A model generated the notes under the pieces. The model saw only the letters and a program-made list of their open reading frames with translations. It was not told the origin of the DNA and searched no databases. From positions 1-42,092 of the forward strand of contig JAGPMT010000026.1 of assembly GCA_018052735.1 (NCBI GenBank): a stretch of 42,092 nt of DNA, in the 5' to 3' direction. A program made the translations under genes and the position numbers. Source of the stretch: Phycisphaerae bacterium (GTDB taxonomy: Bacteria; Planctomycetota; Phycisphaerae; Sedimentisphaerales; Anaerohalosphaeraceae). How positions within the stretch are numbered: position 1 is the stretch's first letter; each line of letters opens with the position of its first letter. This document shows positions 12,784-30,504 of this stretch, piece by piece.

Positions 12784-12808
12784 TAAGTGAGTTCTTTGAA
12801 ATTATTGG

Positions 12809-13011
12809 AAAAGCATTTTCAGGTTCGGCCGGACTTTCCGGGCTGAATAACGAAATGGGAACACGGTGAAAATCCGTGACGGTCGCGCCGCTGTATGTAT
12901 CTGCTGTGCCGAGCGCACAAATCTTGACAGCATCGTCCCACTGTCCACTATTCGGATGGGAAGGGGTTGTCAAGCAGGATGCAAGTCAGAAAACCTGCCT
13001 GAAGGTGTTTT
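12809..13011 (+). promoter_or_regulatory. Cobalamin (adenosylcobalamin-type) riboswitch aptamer
   Basis: A B12-sensing RNA. The closing helix P1 forms between 12809-12823 (ending TTTTCAGG) and 12998-13011 (CCTGAAGGTGTTTT). Conserved core pieces appear in order: AATAACGAAATGGGAA, the CGGTGAAAATCCGTGAC hairpin, CGCGCCGCTGTA (counterpart of the B12-box core), CCCACTG paired with TGGGAAGG, and the 3' signature AAGTCAGAAAACCTGCC. The length of about 200 nt is normal for this class. It lies about 340 bases before a PEP-CTERM gene and has its own expression platform. The class call is firm; the exact cobalamin form sensed cannot be read by eye. Confidence 0.93.
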
Positions 13012-13033
13012 GTGTTGGTTTGTTCTCGCGTAT

Positions 13034-13134
13034 GGAACAGCGGCACGCCTGTCGGTCAAGGCCAGTTTGCAGCGTCCGGACACCTGCCTTTTCCGACATG
13101 GAGTTTGCAATCGATACTCATAAGCCGCTGTTCC
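13034..13134 (+). promoter_or_regulatory. Antiterminator pairing of the cobalamin riboswitch
   Basis: GGAACAGCGGC (13034-13044) is the perfect 11-base complement of GCCGCTGTTCC (13124-13134). The latter contains the 5' arm of the terminator hairpin. Formation of this helix would prevent the terminator, the standard layout of a transcription-attenuating riboswitch. Confidence 0.7.
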
Positions 13135-13161
13135 AGCAATAAGCCGACAGCGGCTTTTTTT
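13122..13161 (+). terminator. Riboswitch-controlled intrinsic terminator
   Basis: A perfect 10-bp stem, AAGCCGCTGT (13122-13131) with ACAGCGGCTT (13147-13156), is followed by an unbroken T tract. It lies 110 bases after the aptamer and about 190 bases before the first gene. Together with the antiterminator arm it forms the expression platform. Confidence 0.88.
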
Positions 13162-13175
13162 ATGGATTTTTTTCG

Positions 13176-13313
13176 AATCTGCCCAGAGCAGATTCAGAAA
13201 GGAGACCCAAAAGCTCAAAATCTGTGTTATTTCCACCGTTCAATCCGGCGGAGGATTGAACAATAAGCCGAAGGGCTTGCCGCGGCTGCTTATAATCTGC
13301 CGGCAGCTGCGGC
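13176..13313 (+). other. Series of short hairpins in the leader after the riboswitch terminator
   Basis: Four further hairpins can be drawn before the first gene: AATCTGC/GCAGATT (13176-13194), GTTCAATCC/GGATTGAAC (13238-13261, 9-bp perfect), AAGCC/GGCTT (13265-13278) and GCCGCGGCTGC/GCAGCTGCGGC (13279-13313, one G-U pair). The string CAATAAGCCG occurs twice (13137 and 13261). None has a T tract good enough to call a terminator. They may stabilise the mRNA or be a processing region. Confidence 0.5.
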
Positions 13314-13353
13314 ACTTTTCAAAAAAGCAATATGGAAACTTTGGAGAACATCA

Positions 13354-14016
13354 ATGAAGCGATTTGTTGTTTATATGGCTGGCTTAACTATTGCTGCTGC
13401 AGGATTTGCCGGTCTGACATTCGAAGATATCGATTTTTGGGTCGGTCAGGGCACTCAGAGGGCAGCCCTTGTTATCGATTGGAATGATGGACCTAACGAG
13501 CTGGTTAAGGTCTGGGGATTCCGCTGGGATGGTACGGCTACTGGTGCGGATCTGGTTCTGGCCGTTTGTGCGGCTGATGCTGATTTTTATGCGATGGGCG
13601 GATCAGGGCCTTACGGCTTTGCAATAGGCGGACTTGGATATGATAAAAATGGAAATGGTTTCTTCGACATCAGCAAAACAGCATCCGCAAGCAATTTCGA
13701 CAGCAGCGGCTATATGGCTGTGGCCGGTTATGCCTTTGACGGCTGGTCTGCGGCAGAGTCGGGTGATGTCTGGTGCGGCGGCTGGGAAACCGATGGCTTC
13801 TGGGGCTATTTTTATAATGAAGCAGGTGTATGGATTTCCTCCATGATCGGGGCCTCATCCAGAGTATTGGCTGATGGCGACTGGGATGGCTGGAGCTGGG
13901 GGGCAGCCCAGAACGGCTGGTATGGCGGCGCTCCGAGTGCGTCTGTGGCTGTGCCGGAACCGACGGCGGCTGTACTTTTGGCCATTGGTTTGCTTTTTGT
14001 ATCCAACAGAAAATAA
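13354..14016 (+). CDS. PEP-CTERM surface protein under cobalamin riboswitch control
   Basis: A 220-residue exported protein. It has a Sec signal peptide (about residues 1-19), a Trp/Gly/Asp-rich body, and a C-terminal PEP-CTERM tail: VPEPTAAVLLAIGLLFV followed by SNRK. Such tails are recognised by an exosortase, which cuts the protein and anchors or releases it at the surface. The body begins with WVGQGTQRAALVIDWNDG and contains KVWGFRWDGTATGADLVLAV and FAIGGLGYD; I recall similar Trp-Asp-Gly-rich proteins in other bacteria, including some near B12 uptake genes in Bacteroidetes, but I cannot verify this here. GGAG lies 7 bases before the ATG. It is the first gene after the riboswitch; its function is unknown. 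Confidence 0.85.
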   Translation: MKRFVVYMAGLTIAAAGFAGLTFEDIDFWVGQGTQRAALVIDWNDGPNELVKVWGFRWDGTATGADLVLAVCAADADFYAMGGSGPYGFAIGGLGYDKNGNGFFDISKTASASNFDSSGYMAVAGYAFDGWSAAESGDVWCGGWETDGFWGYFYNEAGVWISSMIGASSRVLADGDWDGWSWGAAQNGWYGGAPSASVAVPEPTAAVLLAIGLLFVSNRK

Positions 14017-14030
14017 ACGCTAACATCTTT

Positions 14031-14065
14031 GCACAGCAGGGCCAACGCCTCTGGTGTGCATTTTT
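14031..14065 (+). terminator. Possible weak terminator between the two surface-protein genes
   Basis: GCACA (14031-14035) pairs with TGTGC (14055-14059), with CAG/CTG and GGC/GCC pairs inside, followed by ATTTTT. The stem is imperfect. If active it would lower expression of the second gene relative to the first. Confidence 0.4.
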
Positions 14066-14072
14066 AAAACCG

Positions 14073-15041
14073 GTGAAAATGAGATATTTATGTTTGATAT
14101 GCTGGATTGCAGGAATGGCTGTCTGCCAAGTTCCGGCGACATCAGATTTTGCCGTCGAGGTAACGGCGGCAGAAGGCAGCTTTAACGGCAGCCGTTATCG
14201 AAATCCAAACGCTGTTCTCGGCAAACCCGCCGTGCAGTGCCTAAACGACCGGCTCTGGGATCCAACGCTGCCGGTTTCCTTTCGCGTCAAGCTTGTAGAG
14301 GCAGCCTATAACCTTTCGCTGGATGGTGCCGGTGTTATCACCACAATTAATCCGGGTGAGTCGATAACTGTTAAGTTTGACCATCCGGTTGTAGATTATC
14401 CGCAAAATCCATTCGGACAGGATTTCATTGTATTTGGGAATGCATTTTTTCAGTATTCTCAACAGGTTAAAATCTCCGACCAGACAAATCTAAATACAGT
14501 TCTATTGGCCAATCCCGCACAGACTGCATTTGGTCAAATCATCGTTTCTGTCAGTCAAGACGGACAAATCTGGCATACATTTGAAAATGGTCCCTGGGCC
14601 GATGATTTATTCCCGACTCAGGCCTATCAATGGGACCGTGCAAATGCCCGGTGGACAGATATTGAAATGGACTTTACCCGTCCGGTTGACCCCAATCTAA
14701 CGCTGGCCGATTTTTCAGGTCTTACAGCGGCCGAAGCGATTGATTTATATGCCGGTTCGGCAGGCGGGACGTCCTTTGACCTTAACGATCTGCCCCATTA
14801 TGACCAATTGCTCCCGGATCCTAATAGCGGTTATCGCTGGATTCAGTATGTTCGTTTGGAAGGTGGTCAGGGTCCGTTTGCTTTGGGCGGTCAGGTGGAT
14901 GCAGTGGCGGATGTAGCGGCCTGCGGTGATCCCACGCACCCGTATCCTTCCGGCGACATTACACGGGACTGCCGGGTGGATATGGCAGATTTGGCGATCG
15001 TGGCCGCTAGCTGGCTGGAATGTACCTACAAATGCGAGTAA
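14073..15041 (+). CDS. Exported surface protein with dockerin-like C-terminal repeat
   Basis: A 322-residue exported protein with an N-terminal signal peptide (hydrophobic to about residue 19), a beta-rich body and a C-terminal calcium-binding-type repeat, SGDITRDCRVDMADLAIVAA then SWLEC. This is half of a type I dockerin pattern (GD.n.D..VD..DL....W), common on planctomycete surface proteins. The body has the motif GESITVKFDHPVVDY then DFIVFGNAFF, IIVSVSQDGQIWH and WIQYVRLEG. This pattern (a beta-sandwich 'FD.PV....DF.VF.NAF') also occurs, as I recall, in surface proteins encoded in B12 uptake loci. Start is GTG 14073 or ATG 14079; neither has a strong ribosome site. Exact function unknown. 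Confidence 0.8.
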   Translation: MKMRYLCLICWIAGMAVCQVPATSDFAVEVTAAEGSFNGSRYRNPNAVLGKPAVQCLNDRLWDPTLPVSFRVKLVEAAYNLSLDGAGVITTINPGESITVKFDHPVVDYPQNPFGQDFIVFGNAFFQYSQQVKISDQTNLNTVLLANPAQTAFGQIIVSVSQDGQIWHTFENGPWADDLFPTQAYQWDRANARWTDIEMDFTRPVDPNLTLADFSGLTAAEAIDLYAGSAGGTSFDLNDLPHYDQLLPDPNSGYRWIQYVRLEGGQGPFALGGQVDAVADVAACGDPTHPYPSGDITRDCRVDMADLAIVAASWLECTYKCE

Positions 15042-15045
15042 GATA

Positions 15046-15942
15046 ATGACCGACAGGAAAGGATTTACATTAATCGAACTGCTGACGGTTATTGGCATTA
15101 CAGCACTTCTGCTGGCTGTGGCGGCTCCTTCGCTGCTGCTGGCAAAAGAGCAGGCCCGCGGGATTTACTGCCGCAGCAATCTCAAACAAATGTGCGCGGC
15201 TGCTGCGGCTTATGCAATGAATAGCGATGATTACTACCCGATTGCCTATTATCAGCGTTTTTCGGCTGGACAAGATGGTTCGGCATTGCTTCCTCAAGAA
15301 CCGCCCGGCGATTGCGGTTCTCAAGCCCTGTCAGAAGCAATTTCCTTTTCTTTCTGCTGGGATTTTACGGCAGTCATTACAGCTGACGGCCGCCGGCTCA
15401 TTCGCCCTGGTCTGCTCTGGCAGAGTGATACGTTGGAAAAAGTGCATCAGTGTCCTTCCTACAAAGGCAGCGATAACTGGAGCGGACATCCATATACCGG
15501 TTATAACTACAATACCAGCTATATCGGTCACGGACAGGGCGAAACCGTCAATCCGGCGGTCTTTACCGGAATCGTCAAATCCGCTCAAGACGCCTCTGGA
15601 CAGTCCATCGTAATGCCGGCCAGAACGTCACATGTCAGAAATCCCTCCTCCTGCGTAATATTTGGAGAGGGTCATTATGCCGGCGGAGCCAATAAACTGA
15701 TGCGTTCGCCGTTTGTTTGGGAAGGGGACACCGATTGGGATGTCCGGACTGGCGGTACGCAGGGCTACCGACATATGAATCAAACCAATATCGGGTGGGC
15801 GGCCGGCCATGTTACCGCTCAAAGAGAGCTTTATACGGACACACACCCGCGTTATAAATCTCAACTGGAAGCCTTCAACTGCTCTAACAAGATTAAAATT
15901 GGTTTCCTGTCGCCAGACAATTCCCTGTATGACTTGAAATAA
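15046..15942 (+). CDS. Type IV prepilin-like protein (DUF1559 / H-X9-DG type)
   Basis: A 298-residue protein with a class III prepilin signal, MTDRKGFTLIELLTVIGITA: short basic leader, Gly before the cleavage site, Phe at +1 and Glu at +5, then a hydrophobic helix. Near the C-terminus YRHMNQTNIGWAAGHV corresponds to the 'H-X9-DG' motif, with Ala replacing Asp. These pseudopilin-like proteins are very abundant in Planctomycetota and mostly uncharacterised. I start at the ATG at 15046, four bases after the previous stop, because it puts the processing site where prepilins have it; the frame stays open upstream inside the previous gene. It is probably translated by coupling with that gene and falls under the same riboswitch. 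Confidence 0.82.
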   Translation: MTDRKGFTLIELLTVIGITALLLAVAAPSLLLAKEQARGIYCRSNLKQMCAAAAAYAMNSDDYYPIAYYQRFSAGQDGSALLPQEPPGDCGSQALSEAISFSFCWDFTAVITADGRRLIRPGLLWQSDTLEKVHQCPSYKGSDNWSGHPYTGYNYNTSYIGHGQGETVNPAVFTGIVKSAQDASGQSIVMPARTSHVRNPSSCVIFGEGHYAGGANKLMRSPFVWEGDTDWDVRTGGTQGYRHMNQTNIGWAAGHVTAQRELYTDTHPRYKSQLEAFNCSNKIKIGFLSPDNSLYDLK

Positions 15943-15982: not shown

Positions 15983-16744
15983 ATGGAAATCGGAACAAGG
16001 AAGGTTTTGGGCAACAGTGCAGCAGCCGTCTGGCAGGCGGGATTGCATTTATTATGGCCGGATAAATGTTTGGTCTGCGGCCAGAGCATTCATCCTGCCG
16101 ATGAACAGCTGTGCCGGTCCTGTTGGCAGGACTTATCCGAAGCGGTGTCAGGGGATTACTGCCGCCGGTGCGGACACGATGTCAGTCCGTATGGAATTGT
16201 CGGAGGACGCTGCGGTTACTGTCAGCAGCTGGAGCTGCCTTATGACGGCATCGTTCGGGTAGGCCGTTATGAGTCGGCCTTGCGGGCACTGATTCTTTTG
16301 CTGAAATTTTCAGAGCAAACGCAGCTGGCTGACCGTCTCTCTCAGATGCTTCAGCAGGCTCTGCTGACCAGTCCCTTTCTGTCCCGCATTGATATGCTGG
16401 TTCCCGTGCCTCTGCATTGGCGCAGGCGTCTGCAGAGAGGTTTTAACCAGTCTTGTCTTCTGGCAAAGAAATTGCAGTCGTTAAATATCCCAACAGCCGC
16501 CGATCTGATACGTGTCCGCAATACCGAACAGCAATGGGACCTGACGCCTGCCCAGCGGCGGAGGAATGTCCGCGGTGCATTTGCTGTCCGCAGGGGGCAT
16601 CCATTTGCAAACAAGACAATTGTCCTTGTGGATGATGTTACCACCAGCGGAGCCACTCTTGAAGAATGCGCCAGAACCCTTAAGCTGGCCGGAGCATCAG
16701 GGGTGTATGCTGCCGTTGTGGCTGCCGCCCATCCTGTGTCATAA
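15983..16744 (+). CDS. comF: ComF-family phosphoribosyltransferase-like protein
   Basis: A 253-residue ComF/GntX-type protein. The N-terminus carries a double zinc-ribbon: CLVCGQ...CRSC (about residues 32-52) and CRRCG...CGYC (about 61-80). The C-terminal phosphoribosyltransferase fold has the PRPP-binding motif IVLVDDVTTSGATLEECA at about residue 215, and DMLVPVPLHWRRRLQRGFNQ is the ComF signature. In naturally competent bacteria ComF helps DNA uptake across the inner membrane; elsewhere its role is unclear. No ribosome-binding site precedes the ATG, and a TATAAT lies 7 bases upstream. No other competence genes are near. Confidence 0.92.
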   Translation: MEIGTRKVLGNSAAAVWQAGLHLLWPDKCLVCGQSIHPADEQLCRSCWQDLSEAVSGDYCRRCGHDVSPYGIVGGRCGYCQQLELPYDGIVRVGRYESALRALILLLKFSEQTQLADRLSQMLQQALLTSPFLSRIDMLVPVPLHWRRRLQRGFNQSCLLAKKLQSLNIPTAADLIRVRNTEQQWDLTPAQRRRNVRGAFAVRRGHPFANKTIVLVDDVTTSGATLEECARTLKLAGASGVYAAVVAAAHPVS

Positions 16745-22548: not shown

Positions 22549-23072
22549 ATCATCGACAGTGGGGGAAGTAGGAAAGATACGAGCTTGGCAAGTTGTTGAA
22601 TATGTTTTGAGTTTTTTATCTTGCTGAGCTGTCAATTCATTTTTTGGGGAGTGTTGGAAAGACTTTCTGTGAGGAGTTGAGATTCTGTTGGCGATAAGGG
22701 TTTTTTATCGCCGAGGACGGGAAAGAGGAATCGCAATGTGAAACAGGAAGTTTTTTTGACCGTTCAGTTCAAAAAGCTTCATTTCATACAGGCAGGAGAA
22801 GAGCTGGAAAGACGTTTACGAGGATGAGGACAGAGTGTCGTTCCAGAGCAGGTTATGTACTGCATGGACAGCGGGGAGAGGAATTGATCGAGCCAAAAGG
22901 CGGATGAATTGCTCTTTTTGAAGTGAACGTCCTTTGAGAATCGTAAAAGCTGTTCAGCGCGGGGCTGCTCAAAGCAGTCCATAAGCCTGAAACACCTTTT
23001 TGTTTTTCATAACGGGCTTTATCCAAAGGATTGTTTCTTTTGCTGTAAGAAATGTAAGAAAGGAGATTGATG
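22549..23072 (+). other. Long non-coding leader ahead of the PEP-CTERM cluster
   Basis: About 520 bases with no credible gene. It holds a hairpin GGCGATA...TATCGCC (22690-22712), a CTGCT-CAA-AGCAG hairpin near 22963, and many purine-rich runs (GAAAG, GGAAG, GGAGAAG). I do not recognise any known riboswitch class in it. It could be a regulatory leader or hold a small RNA. Confidence 0.45.
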
Positions 23073-23612
23073 ATGAAGAAGTTAGGAATGGGGCTGGCGT
23101 TTTTGGCAGTTGTTCTGCTGCCGGCAGGTGCTTGGGCAACAATTATCGCAGATGCCTTTTTTACTTACACTCCTTTGTCGGGTCCGGGGACTGTAACAGT
23201 GCACAGTTGGGTAGAGGATTTGGCTCCGACAGCCGCCCTTTACCGCTACAACTATCAAATTCTGGATCCATCGGTCAATATTCAGTGGTTCTCTGCTGAA
23301 CTCCTTCCCAATGCGGCGATTGTCAATTGGGCGACCTATACCGGTCTTCCCGGCGAGCCGGCTCTGTGGGCACCCAACGGCATCGGTACGAGTTTTGACG
23401 CAACATTTATCAATCCTATCCTGGCCCCCAGCGGGAAATCTGCGGTTTTATGGTTTGACAGCCCGCAGAAACCGACAACAGCAGACGGCATGGCGGCAGG
23501 ATTTACAGGCGGCTACAAGGCGTTCTACGGCAATCTTTATACCCCGGTTCCTGAACCGACGACATTGCTGCTGCTGGCAGCAGGGGCAATAGGACTGCTG
23601 CGAAAAAAATAG
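23073..23612 (+). CDS. PEP-CTERM surface protein 1 of the cluster
   Basis: A roughly 179-residue exported protein with a signal peptide (MKKLGMGLAFLAVVLLPAG, cleavage after AWA) and the C-terminal tail VPEPTTLLLLAAGAIGLLRKK, a complete PEP-CTERM signal: Pro-Glu-Pro, a hydrophobic helix and a basic end. The body is beta-rich with no Cys and shows ALYRYNYQILDPSVNIQWF, similar in style to the next protein. I choose the ATG at 23073, 7 bases after AGGAG; ATG 23070 and TTG 23067 are also in frame. Its role is unknown beyond being sent to the surface by an exosortase. Confidence 0.83.
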   Translation: MKKLGMGLAFLAVVLLPAGAWATIIADAFFTYTPLSGPGTVTVHSWVEDLAPTAALYRYNYQILDPSVNIQWFSAELLPNAAIVNWATYTGLPGEPALWAPNGIGTSFDATFINPILAPSGKSAVLWFDSPQKPTTADGMAAGFTGGYKAFYGNLYTPVPEPTTLLLLAAGAIGLLRKK

Positions 23613-23653
23613 CGGGTGATGGTTTAATTTTTTAAGATCGGAGGTTGTGTGCG

Positions 23654-24304
23654 ATGAAGAAGATGTGGGTGATGATAATGTCGTGCGTATTGCTGGGTTC
23701 GGCCATACAGGCCGGGCTGGCACCAACGTATCTGCCGTCCAGTTCTTATTATCAGGGCCGGCACAGTTTTGCTTATGATTTGGGGGCTCAGGGCATTTTG
23801 AGCGGCCATTTGGAGTTTGCCGTTTACAAAGGAACCGAGGCCGAAGTGATGATGGACTGGACTGGATATCAGGGACAAGCCCAGTATGTGTATGCCTACC
23901 AGGTTTTCAATGACGGGGCCAACAGCAATGCGGCACTGACCTATTTCGCCCTGACAGGCATCAATCCGGGTTCTATCGGCTCTGTCACGGAAGATATCGG
24001 ACAGGCTGAGTCCGTCGGCTCCTTTGATTCTGAAGGCATTGCTCCGGAAGGAGATGGGTATTTCAATGCATCCGTTACGAAGGCCATCTGGACATTTGCT
24101 GACGGAACCTTGATAAAAGGAACGCAGTCATGGTTTCTCTTCCTTTACAGCAACTACGATTGGATTAAGGGCGATATGGAGGTCCAGACCACGCAAAACG
24201 ACGACATCCCGATTCCAGACGATAGCAACAACAATATCCCGGAGCCGGCTACAATGCTGCTGCTGGTAAGCGGACTGGTTTTGTCCGGGTTGCGGAAAAA
24301 GTAA
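23654..24304 (+). CDS. PEP-CTERM surface protein 2 with Asp-rich linker
   Basis: A 216-residue exported protein with a signal peptide (about residues 1-19), a beta-rich body, an acidic linker NDDIPIPDDSNNNIPEPATM running straight into the PEP-CTERM signal, a hydrophobic helix and GLRKK. The body segment AQYVYAYQVFNDGANSNAAL resembles the YNYQILDP region of the previous protein, so the two may share a fold. The ATG at 23654 is preceded by GGAGGT at 8 bases, which decides the start. It follows the first gene by 41 bases. Confidence 0.83.
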   Translation: MKKMWVMIMSCVLLGSAIQAGLAPTYLPSSSYYQGRHSFAYDLGAQGILSGHLEFAVYKGTEAEVMMDWTGYQGQAQYVYAYQVFNDGANSNAALTYFALTGINPGSIGSVTEDIGQAESVGSFDSEGIAPEGDGYFNASVTKAIWTFADGTLIKGTQSWFLFLYSNYDWIKGDMEVQTTQNDDIPIPDDSNNNIPEPATMLLLVSGLVLSGLRKK

Positions 24305-24343
24305 AACGGCATCATCAATATTGCTGCCGGGGGGCGCAATTTT

Positions 24344-24979
24344 ATGAAAGGCCTAAAGAAAATGAATCCACGGTGGAGTGTGATAGCGGGGTGTGTGCTG
24401 GTTTTTCTGGCTGTTTCTGCTGGTGTACGGGGAGCCGACGAAAACAGCTATACGCTTTTAATCCAAAGCAGTCCTCCGGACGGGGGCGTTGTCTCGCCCG
24501 GGATGGGTGTTTTGGCGATGCCGGTGGGGCAGAAAATTCCTCTGGCAGCGACGCCGAATCGGGGTTATCGTTTTGCTTACTGGCTGGGCGATGTCTCCTC
24601 GAATGGTCCTGCCGATGCGATTGTATCGATTGATTCCCCCAAACTGATAGTGGCTGTATTTGTTCGGGAAGAATTTGAAGAAACGCTTCCGGGACTTAGT
24701 GTTATCGACGGCCAGATGGGCGGCGGAGGCGGTCAACGGTATATCGGCACTCCTATGCAGTCTCCCGGCGGTGTCAGTCCTGCCTATGGATCTTCCGGTG
24801 GCGGTTACACCTACAACTTTCCCAATATTCCCGATGATGATGATGATGATATTCCCATTCCGGATGATGGCGGCGATGATGATATTCCGATTCCGGGCGA
24901 TGGAGAAGTACCTGAACCGGCTACCATTTTTCTGCTTGGACTGGGTACAGTGGCTCTTGTTATAAGCCGCAAGCGATAG
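24344..24979 (+). CDS. PEP-CTERM surface protein 3 with InlB-type repeat and poly-Asp linker
   Basis: A 211-residue exported protein. After a signal peptide (hydrophobic about 14-29), residues 35-105 resemble one divergent InlB B-repeat: YTLLIQSSPPDGGVVSPG, then IPLAATPNRGYRFAYWLGDV and a closing IVAVFVRE strand. A Gly-rich stretch (QMGGGGGQRY; SSGGGYTYN) leads to an acidic linker with six consecutive Asp and repeated DDIPIP units, then VPEPATIFLLGLGTVALV and SRKR. The acidic linker may bind calcium or keep the protein extended from the surface (inference). A run of Gs lies 9 bases before the ATG. A terminator follows about 105 bases later. Confidence 0.82.
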   Translation: MKGLKKMNPRWSVIAGCVLVFLAVSAGVRGADENSYTLLIQSSPPDGGVVSPGMGVLAMPVGQKIPLAATPNRGYRFAYWLGDVSSNGPADAIVSIDSPKLIVAVFVREEFEETLPGLSVIDGQMGGGGGQRYIGTPMQSPGGVSPAYGSSGGGYTYNFPNIPDDDDDDIPIPDDGGDDDIPIPGDGEVPEPATIFLLGLGTVALVISRKR

Positions 24980-28224: not shown

Positions 28225-30504
28225 ATGGAATTGCGACTGCACAGAAAGCTTTGGGGGGGTCTTTTCATTCTTGCCGCTTTCATAAGTTCCACTCTCGCTG
28301 CACAGGAAGCTGCCAAGCCGGAGAATTTATTCGAACTGTCGCTGGAGGAGCTGATGAATGTGGAAATCACTTCAATGGCTTCACTGACCTCCGCGACACG
28401 GCGACTGCAACCGTCTGCTATCACAACCATAACCGAGGCGGACATTCAGGCCTCGGGTGCCCGCTCGCTTTATGAACTGCTGGATATTTATGTGCCGAAC
28501 CTGCAGTGGATTCGAAACTGGTGGGAACCGGATAATATCGGTTTGCGCGGCATTATCAGCGACCGCGACGATAAGTACCTGCTGACGGTCAACGGCAAAG
28601 TAATGAACGACCGCACGCATTACGGCGCCATCAGCGAGCGCGATCTGGTGCTGCTGCGGGATATCCATCACATTGACGTGGTGCGCGGGCCGGGATCGGC
28701 GTTGTATGGACCGGGTGCGGTATCCATGGTGATCAATATTGTCACGCATAACTATAAGACATTCCAGGGAACAGAAATCACGACACGGGCAGGTGTGGTT
28801 GAAGAATTCGAATCGGTGGAAATTCGACACGGACGCGAGTTTTCGGATAATGACGGCGGTATTTTTGGATACGCCGGCATCGGCAATTATGTGGGCGCCA
28901 GCAAGTATGATGCGCCGGTCCACTACGGATTTGATTTTCCGAGCGTGTCATGGTTTGACTGGACCGGCCAAACCGGCGCGGACTACTATCCCGGCGACGG
29001 CACAGCCGCAGGTGACGCGATGACCAGTATCAACATGCCCCGGGACCAGGCGGCGGCCCGTGGTCTTCCGCCGGTCAAGTTGTTCGGGCAGATCAATCGA
29101 GGTGACTGGACCTATTGGGCACGGTACACGCGCGGCGGGCAGGCGTTTCCATGGGAGGGCTCGACCCTGGCACGAGTTCCCTACGGCTGGACGGACTGGC
29201 TGCGCGGCGGCATCGTGGATTGGGTTGAGTATGAGCCCGGCCAGTGGGGTCCTGCCTGGGACACGTATCCCCTGGCGCAGAATTTTTATCAATATCAGCA
29301 ATTAACAGGTTACGCGGGGTATGACACCAGCTTATCGGAGAAAACCGATTTAAGTTTGGGCTTCGGCTATGATATGTTCGATTATAATCGGTTTGTCATC
29401 AACAGTATCGCCGACTCGTATCGTGAAGACGAGTACTATGCGCGGGTATTGCTCCGGCATCGGTTTAATGAACGCCATCAGGCCGCGTTCGGTGCGGAAG
29501 TCTCACATCACGAACTGGGGCTGGATCCGCACGGCTGGCCGGATATAGGATTCAAAAGCAGCAACGATATGCTCAGCGGCGACAATGCAAGCCGGTGGTC
29601 CACCAACCTGTACTCGCTTTTTGGCGAATACCAGTGGAACATTACCGACCAATGGACGACGTTTCTCGGCGCCCGCGTCGATGACCATACTTACAGCGGC
29701 AAGATGTTTTCCCCGCGCGCCGCGCTGGTCCATACGCCCAACGAAAAGGACACCTATAAACTCATGTGGGCACGATCCGTTCGGGCTAATTTCGAGGAAG
29801 AAATGCGGGCCGGAGCGCTGAACGGTCTGGGCGACGGCGACCCGGAAAAACTCGACAGCGTCGAATTGCGTTATGAGCGTACGCACACGAAGAATATTGA
29901 TCTGGCCGCTTCGTTCTTCTGGCACTACAACCTCGAACTGATCTCCTGGTCCGGATCCACCGGTGCGCCAGTTCCCATCGGAACGCAAAAGAACTATGGT
30001 ATCGAGCTGGAGGCGTATTATCATACCGACAAAACGCGGTTCGGCATTTCACACGGCTTTACCAAGCTCTATGAATTTGATCTGGCAGAGGGGCAATCAA
30101 CCACCCTCACGTCTGAAGCGTACGGCGCCGGAGAGGACTCGGCCCTGTGGTCCAAACATGTTACCAAATTAACGGCGTGTCACAAGCTGACAGACCAGTT
30201 AACCGTCGACGGTTCGCTGCGCACCTATTGGGGATTCAGCGGGATAAAGGACCTGGAACGATACCGCCTAAGCCAGAACCCGAACCATCCGATCGATCCG
30301 GACTGGGAGCGCGGCTACCGAGGCAATTACTACCTCAATTTGGGTCTTCAGTATCAGCCGGATAAAAACCTGACCTTCCGTGTGGACGGCATGAATCTGC
30401 TGGGTATTTTTGACAAGGATTTGAATAAACGCAACTACGGTTCCTCGGGCGCCTTCCGTTCGCACGCCCCGGCAGTGGCGGTCACGATGACATATACGTT
30501 TTAG
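28225..30504 (+). CDS. TonB-dependent outer-membrane receptor
   Basis: A 759-residue TonB-dependent receptor that would import a scarce nutrient across the outer membrane. After a signal peptide (about 1-25) comes LSLEELMNVEITSMASLTSA, a known N-terminal signature of a receptor subfamily, then the plug domain (about 55-175) with the VVRGPGSALYGPGAVSMVIN motif, and a 22-strand barrel ending in VAVTMTYTF with a terminal Phe. The substrate is not evident, and no TonB, ExbB or ABC genes are near. The gene is visibly richer in G+C (frequent CGC, GCG, GAC) than its neighbours, which hints at transfer. AAAGG lies 9 bases upstream. Its stop overlaps that of the converging rdgB. Confidence 0.93.
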   Translation: MELRLHRKLWGGLFILAAFISSTLAAQEAAKPENLFELSLEELMNVEITSMASLTSATRRLQPSAITTITEADIQASGARSLYELLDIYVPNLQWIRNWWEPDNIGLRGIISDRDDKYLLTVNGKVMNDRTHYGAISERDLVLLRDIHHIDVVRGPGSALYGPGAVSMVINIVTHNYKTFQGTEITTRAGVVEEFESVEIRHGREFSDNDGGIFGYAGIGNYVGASKYDAPVHYGFDFPSVSWFDWTGQTGADYYPGDGTAAGDAMTSINMPRDQAAARGLPPVKLFGQINRGDWTYWARYTRGGQAFPWEGSTLARVPYGWTDWLRGGIVDWVEYEPGQWGPAWDTYPLAQNFYQYQQLTGYAGYDTSLSEKTDLSLGFGYDMFDYNRFVINSIADSYREDEYYARVLLRHRFNERHQAAFGAEVSHHELGLDPHGWPDIGFKSSNDMLSGDNASRWSTNLYSLFGEYQWNITDQWTTFLGARVDDHTYSGKMFSPRAALVHTPNEKDTYKLMWARSVRANFEEEMRAGALNGLGDGDPEKLDSVELRYERTHTKNIDLAASFFWHYNLELISWSGSTGAPVPIGTQKNYGIELEAYYHTDKTRFGISHGFTKLYEFDLAEGQSTTLTSEAYGAGEDSALWSKHVTKLTACHKLTDQLTVDGSLRTYWGFSGIKDLERYRLSQNPNHPIDPDWERGYRGNYYLNLGLQYQPDKNLTFRVDGMNLLGIFDKDLNKRNYGSSGAFRSHAPAVAVTMTYTF

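Follow-up and report, generated by a model that had tools for sequence, protein, structure and literature searches.

The window, a 42,092-nucleotide stretch of contig JAGPMT010000026.1 of a Phycisphaerae bacterium (assembly GCA_018052735.1, order Sedimentisphaerales), carries a cobalamin riboswitch followed on the same strand by three genes encoding the proteins termed P1, P2 and P3. This locus is very likely a cell-surface B12 (cobamide) capture module, whose regulation, localisation, B12 binding and hand-over we infer, as we do the part played by P3, and it very probably represents a widespread, so far undescribed bacterial route of B12 capture. Its features are as follows.

12804..13016, + strand: cobalamin riboswitch aptamer RF00174 (Rfam cmscan)
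13034..13044, + strand: predicted antiterminator 5' arm GGAACAGCGGC (predicted fold, 11 bp with 13124-13134)
13124..13161, + strand: intrinsic terminator, GCCGCUGU/ACAGCGGC stem plus U7 (folding and terminator scan)
13354..14016, + strand: P1, exported PEP-CTERM protein of 220 residues with a predicted transcobalamin/intrinsic factor beta-domain-like body (AlphaFold2 model)
13426..13911, + strand: P1 core domain (alignment A6)
13951..14013, + strand: PEP-CTERM sorting signal of P1 (TIGR02595, residues 200-220)
14073..15041, + strand: P2, exported surface protein of 322 residues with a predicted BtuH-like body and a dockerin-like tail (AlphaFold2 model)
14130..14927, + strand: P2 core domain (alignment A5, 50 sequences from several phyla)
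14937..15038, + strand: dockerin-like tail of P2, ending in WLECTYKCE (sequence and related loci)
15046..15942, + strand: P3, prepilin-like protein with a conserved GFLSPDNSAYDL-type C terminus (prepilin motif and conservation)
15983..16744, + strand: comF/gntX-like phosphoribosyltransferase, the next same-strand gene (family searches)

The original prediction had placed a cobalamin riboswitch with a terminator in front of three same-strand open reading frames (ORFs) starting at 13354, 14073 and 15046, described as a PEP-CTERM protein, a protein with a dockerin-like tail and a prepilin-like protein, and each of these elements was recovered. The covariance-model search returned RF00174 Cobalamin at 12804-13016 (+) with 84.8 bits and an E value of 1.2e-19 against a gathering score of 31.5, the alignment spanning the full model (1-189) and being the sole match in the 2.88 Mb genome. 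Downstream, GCCGCUGU (13124-13131) pairs with ACAGCGGC (13147-13154) in a terminator hairpin of -19.4 kcal/mol followed by U7 (13155-13161), a site that the terminator scan reports as a shorter stem. In the predicted fold, GGAACAGCGGC (13034-13044) pairs over 11 bp with 13124-13134, an arm common to terminator and antiterminator, so that the two would be mutually exclusive and could form an expression platform able to switch. As far as folding can tell, the layout of aptamer and terminator/antiterminator corresponds to the expected OFF-switch design. The short gaps between the ORFs, 56 nt from P1 to P2 and 4 nt from P2 to P3, fit the expectation for an operon.

The association between riboswitch and module was surveyed over 108 cobalamin riboswitches of the order with at least 2.5 kb downstream, the window included and one riboswitch of genome G029 excluded. 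Core-only (body-only) models were used, because full-length ones confuse the common signal peptide, PEP-CTERM and dockerin ends with the bodies. In total, 90 of the 108 riboswitches lead into the module, 83 with a core (P1, P2 or DUF4465) plus P3, one with a core alone and six with P3 alone, an association far beyond chance. The arrangement P1, P2, P3 was found at 32 riboswitches and a P1-P2 fusion followed by P3 at eight, while P2 then P3 without a P1 core occurred at six; DUF4465 followed by P3 accounted for 36, with one further locus holding two DUF4465 genes and another lacking P3. With P3 downstream of 89 riboswitches, it is a constant member of the module and not a bystander, and this constancy suggests a needed part. 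None of P1, P2, P3 and DUF4465 followed the remaining 18 riboswitches, seven of which precede btu/cob genes, and most of the others look like a B12-independent isozyme set (NrdD and MetE were confirmed by Pfam in one such locus). At L256 and similar loci of the order, a second cobalamin riboswitch stands in front of the classic B12-independent set of anaerobic ribonucleotide reductase and metE.

A search of 161 genomes of the order yielded numerous close relatives of P2. For the 29 best loci of P2, the short fetched stretch contained RF00174 in 25, nearly all of which continue with P1, P2 and P3 in that order. Among more diverged loci, 16 of the 20 scanned have a same-strand cobalamin riboswitch upstream. 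The expectation that homologues accompany cobalamin riboswitches was borne out almost always by the survey, and several relatives link the module to B12 genes within one operon. In G130, G131, G095 (a member of the window's genus) and G146, the trio leads into btuF-btuD-btuC, and the operons of G095 and G146 also hold cobT, cobS, cobC, btuR, cobU and cobQ, Pfam-confirmed for G095; operons joining the module directly with btuFDC and cob genes were found at no fewer than nine loci of the order (at least 9). Where the records are named, relatives of P2 belong to Planctomycetota, Verrucomicrobiota, Kiritimatiellae, Lentisphaerae, Chthonomonas, WOR-3 and Desulfobacteraceae. The P1 and P2 cores are fused in 21 ORFs across several phyla, including two Verrucomicrobiota loci that continue from the fusion into P3 and FecCD permease genes. 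In a Desulfobacteraceae metagenome-assembled genome (MAG), the riboswitch stands before a gene for a TonB-dependent receptor and, at a greater distance on the same strand, a P1-P2 fusion. This Desulfobacteraceae riboswitch locus (L116 1495-14416) comprises a TonB receptor, a PKD protein, the P1-P2 fusion, a weak cohesin match and a second P2; the cohesin, close to dockerin-tailed relatives, may hint at an anchor.

In some relatives, DUF4465 stands in place of P1 in the slot behind the riboswitch. DUF4465 never co-occurs with the P1 or P2 core in one locus (46 vs 45 and 49 over all surveyed loci), and the DUF4465 genes in the same slot match Pfam PF14717 with E values of 1e-43 to 1e-53, most of them bearing PEP-CTERM. 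P1 and P2 were rejected as DUF4465 proteins themselves, as neither matched PF14717 and profile comparison with DUF4465 gave hhalign probabilities of only 1.1 and 0.1. The middle gene of the DUF4465 loci proved to be a remote P2 relative (hhalign 98.7%, E 4e-16) and P1 is by profile unrelated to DUF4465, so the true exchange is P1 for DUF4465. B12 binding is established for DUF4465 proteins of eight distant origins, among them one from the planctomycete Mucisphaera calidilacus (PMC13398666). As DUF4465 replaces P1 at the same position and binds B12, P1 occupies the slot of a proven B12 binder.

The bodies of P1, P2 and P3 matched no known B12 gene family in Pfam or NCBIfam, as had been claimed, and those of P1 and P2 matched no Pfam family. 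The C terminus of P1 has the pattern of exosortase substrates, with a PEP motif, a hydrophobic stretch and a basic end, scoring 17.3 bits with NCBIfam TIGR02595 (cut-off 16) and 15.0 with the Pfam model, under its cut-off of 20.7, and one exosortase is encoded elsewhere in the genome (PF09721, 185 bits). The motif for the exosortase anchoring proposed originally is carried by P1 and not by P2, which ends in a dockerin-like tail carrying GDITRDCRVDMADLAIVAASWLECTYKC; tails at this position in related loci match Pfam Dockerin_1. P2 starts with GTG at 14073 or alternatively with ATG at 14079, and no canonical lipobox was seen by eye in P2 of the window or in its aligned relatives. P3, 298 residues counted from ATG at 15046, carries the N_methyl prepilin motif (E 1.8e-6); it reached 29.6 of the 88.85 bits needed for the type II secretion system major pseudopilin GspG equivalog and stayed under the cut-off of every named pseudopilin model, the general N-terminal signal excepted. 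P2 also showed a weak, recurrent similarity to Leptospira LIC_13355 lipoproteins (32 of the 50 A5 members, best E 1.3e-7, far below cut-off), in view of which the LIC_13355 family might merit interest in B12 binding too.

AlphaFold2 models were built on alignments of proteins from the fetched loci, 26 sequences for P1 and 30 for P2. The P1 model has a mean pLDDT of 71.5, higher in the core. In its comparison with folds of the Protein Data Bank (PDB), the 15 top rows, at Z 10.3-11.8 over 96-108 residues, are taken up by beta domains from intrinsic factor, haptocorrin and transcobalamin together with one bacterial relative, the best being 2pmv, 4kki, 3kq4 and 2bb6. The first fold outside the transcobalamin clade is SAMP1 with Z 5.9, and a Foldseek search agrees with the top ranking, giving P1 a predicted beta-grasp core of the transcobalamin beta-domain type. 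Model strands 78-85 and 88-96 directly follow helix 64-74, and the strand count would fit five core strands plus a hairpin, but the model is poor over residues 97-147. The P2 model (pLDDT 90.8) matched best 7biz, BtuH2, with Z 12.9 and a root-mean-square deviation (rmsd) of 3.9 over 152 residues. The second-best match was chain B of 8blw in its BtuH part, at Z 12.7 with an rmsd of 3.2 over 155 residues, ahead of PAPP-A (Z 9.8) and then CBM32 domains, with F5/8 domains also further down; Foldseek E values against BtuH were 7e-5 to 1.6e-4. Within 7biz the match covers 316-592, which corresponds to the B12-binding domain (PMC8941943). The reminiscence of BtuG and BtuH noted in the original prediction is thus upheld for P2 and BtuH. 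BtuG likeness was rejected, as no propellers stood among the top fold matches of either model, and P1 resembles neither protein, its closest folds being transcobalamin/intrinsic factor beta domains.

Taken together, the riboswitch, the homologue survey, the operons and the predicted folds support the capture-module reading with which the original prediction began, B12 binding itself being what we infer from them. Under scarce intracellular cobalamin, transcription would read through into P1-P2-P3, and under plentiful cobalamin the terminator would form. P1 would be exported and anchored by exosortase, and P2 exported with its dockerin-like tail; the transcobalamin-beta-type domain of P1 and the BtuH-type domain of P2 would bind extracellular cobamides, possibly around one molecule. 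Transcobalamin's beta domain binds cobalamin on its own, and the two domains of transcobalamin assemble only around cobalamin (PMC5599065), which together with the P1-P2 fusions suggests, without showing, a common P1-P2 site. The vitamin would then be handed to a TonB-dependent receptor and on to the single BtuF-BtuC-BtuD-like importer encoded elsewhere in the genome, while P3, pseudopilin-like, probably assists in positioning or moving the capture proteins. It is a tentative further idea, somewhat doubtful as it stands, that P3 is a dedicated B12-regulated pseudopilin presenting or carrying the clamp and that the module runs without the lipoprotein lid BtuG of Bacteroidota.

Several observations weigh against this reading. 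The btuFCD genes of the window genome lie on a different contig and without a riboswitch, residues 97-147 of P1 are modelled poorly, profiles of P2 (30 and 50 sequences) detect no BtuH chain in the PDB, and a sequence link from P1 to DUF4430 appeared in none of 35 members at E values up to 10. The links of P1 to DUF4430 and of P2 to BtuH come from predicted folds, and a common fold proves no function. Moreover, the BtuH fold is close to sugar-binding CBM32 domains (PMC8941943), and P2 could in principle bind glycans for that reason. In an unlikely alternative, P1-P3 are surface glycan or cell-envelope proteins merely responsive to B12 status, the riboswitch tuning a surface structure instead of uptake, with P2 as a CBM32-type sugar-binding sandwich and P1 as a generic beta-grasp; the CBM32 and F5/8 domains further down the fold list of P2, the pilin-like nature of P3 and the absence of a btu gene from the window genome's own operon speak for it. 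However, the best folds of P1 and P2 are both B12 binders and rank above the next matches, DUF4465 is swapped into the same slot, and the direct operons with btuFDC and cob genes recur in the order.

Somewhat easier to entertain, though still not favoured, is the possibility that one of P1 and P2 alone binds B12, the other being a scaffold or hand-over partner that, for example, docks to the outer-membrane receptor. The six loci with the P2 core and P3 and without the P1 core would agree with this, as would Bacteroides BtuK2 and BtuL, which bind no B12 despite their location in a B12 locus (PMC12751083), yet each predicted fold by itself points to B12, and the beta domain of transcobalamin and the domain of BtuH each bind it in isolation (PMC5599065, PMC12751083). 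It is highly improbable that the neighbourhood is accidental, with the riboswitch governing something else and P1-P3 under their own promoter. The distance of 338 nt from aptamer to P1 would allow it, but the order of genes is kept across the taxonomic order and in Verrucomicrobiota, Kiritimatiellae, Lentisphaerae, Chthonomonas and the Desulfobacteraceae MAG, and a scan, in itself a weak test, found no promoter-like match on the + strand between switch and P1, where a separate B12-independent promoter had been named as a counter-indication.

The window genome encodes one FecCD importer set, with BtuC/BtuF as the best named relatives, together with BtuR and corrinoid-binding domains, and CobS was not found in it, a combination that fits an organism importing complete cobamides. 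Four TonB receptors are encoded in the genome, one of them in the window (28225-30504, about 12 kb from the module) and not clearly BtuB-like; it was not adopted as a module partner, as it matched BtuB models no better than other receptors did, and the more BtuB-like of the four lies at L194 4963-6999. Three more consecutive exported PEP-CTERM proteins are encoded at 23067-24979 of the window, the third with a divergent InlB-type repeat. The comF/gntX-like gene follows P3 in many, not all, relatives and is probably a neighbour outside the module. A diphthamide-synthase-like ATP pyrophosphatase (PF01902) stands directly after P3 at L085 7191-7874 and in L235, L242, L292 and L315, and an Acido-Lenti-1 RNA match lies inside the module locus L061 (2131-2185).

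No description of the module, of a planctomycete BtuH-like protein, of the P1/DUF4465 swap or of the pilin-like partner was found in the open-licence literature, and surface B12 capture has so far been worked out mainly in the gut Bacteroidota lipoproteins BtuG, BtuH and BtuJ. BtuH has already been characterised (PMC8941943), and P2 is alike in predicted fold to BtuH2 and BtuGH (BtuG1) of Bacteroides thetaiotaomicron (7BIZ, 8BLW), exactly over the B12-binding domain, both being surface-exposed (for P2 a prediction) and encoded in cobalamin-riboswitch operons with btu genes (for P2 in relatives). P2 differs in having no sequence profile match, no PKD domains and a dockerin-like tail instead of a lipobox; BtuH2 contacts B12 through Gln333, Asn399, His476, Tyr510, Trp511 and Trp577. 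As sequence searches linked neither protein to BtuH or DUF4430, P1 and P2 are not assigned to these families.

P1 resembles the beta domain of transcobalamin, intrinsic factor and haptocorrin and the bacterial SLBB clade (DUF4430; 2PMV, 4KKI, 2BB5, 3U7Z) in predicted fold, export and B12 context, and is distinct from transcobalamin-type proteins in having no Pfam match, no alpha/alpha toroid partner, a PEP-CTERM anchor and a BtuH-like partner. The occurrence of a transcobalamin-like SLBB clade in planctomycetes, with a predicted role in B12 scavenging, was pointed out in 2007 (PMC1796856). BtuJ/DUF4465 (IPR027828), a B12 binder (PMC12751083, PMC13398666), shares the riboswitch slot and the PEP-CTERM anchor with P1 in related genomes, and DUF4465 proteins bearing C-terminal sorting signals have been described before (PMC12751083), whereas profile comparison shows no homology of P1 or P2 to it. 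P3 shares the N-terminal prepilin motif with type IV pilin-like/DUF1559 proteins, from which it is set apart as a B12-linked subfamily with its own C terminus. In place of lipoproteins such as those of the gut bacteria, planctomycetes and their counterparts among Verrucomicrobiota, Kiritimatiellae and Lentisphaerae would use exosortase- and dockerin-tailed proteins under the same riboswitch type, with the folds of B12 binders combined or swapped, one predicted fold being that of the carriers by which humans absorb B12. Two families whose bodies lack Pfam annotation, and one pilin-like family, thereby acquire a function that experiments can address, and B12 sharing in open environments such as sediments becomes easier to study.

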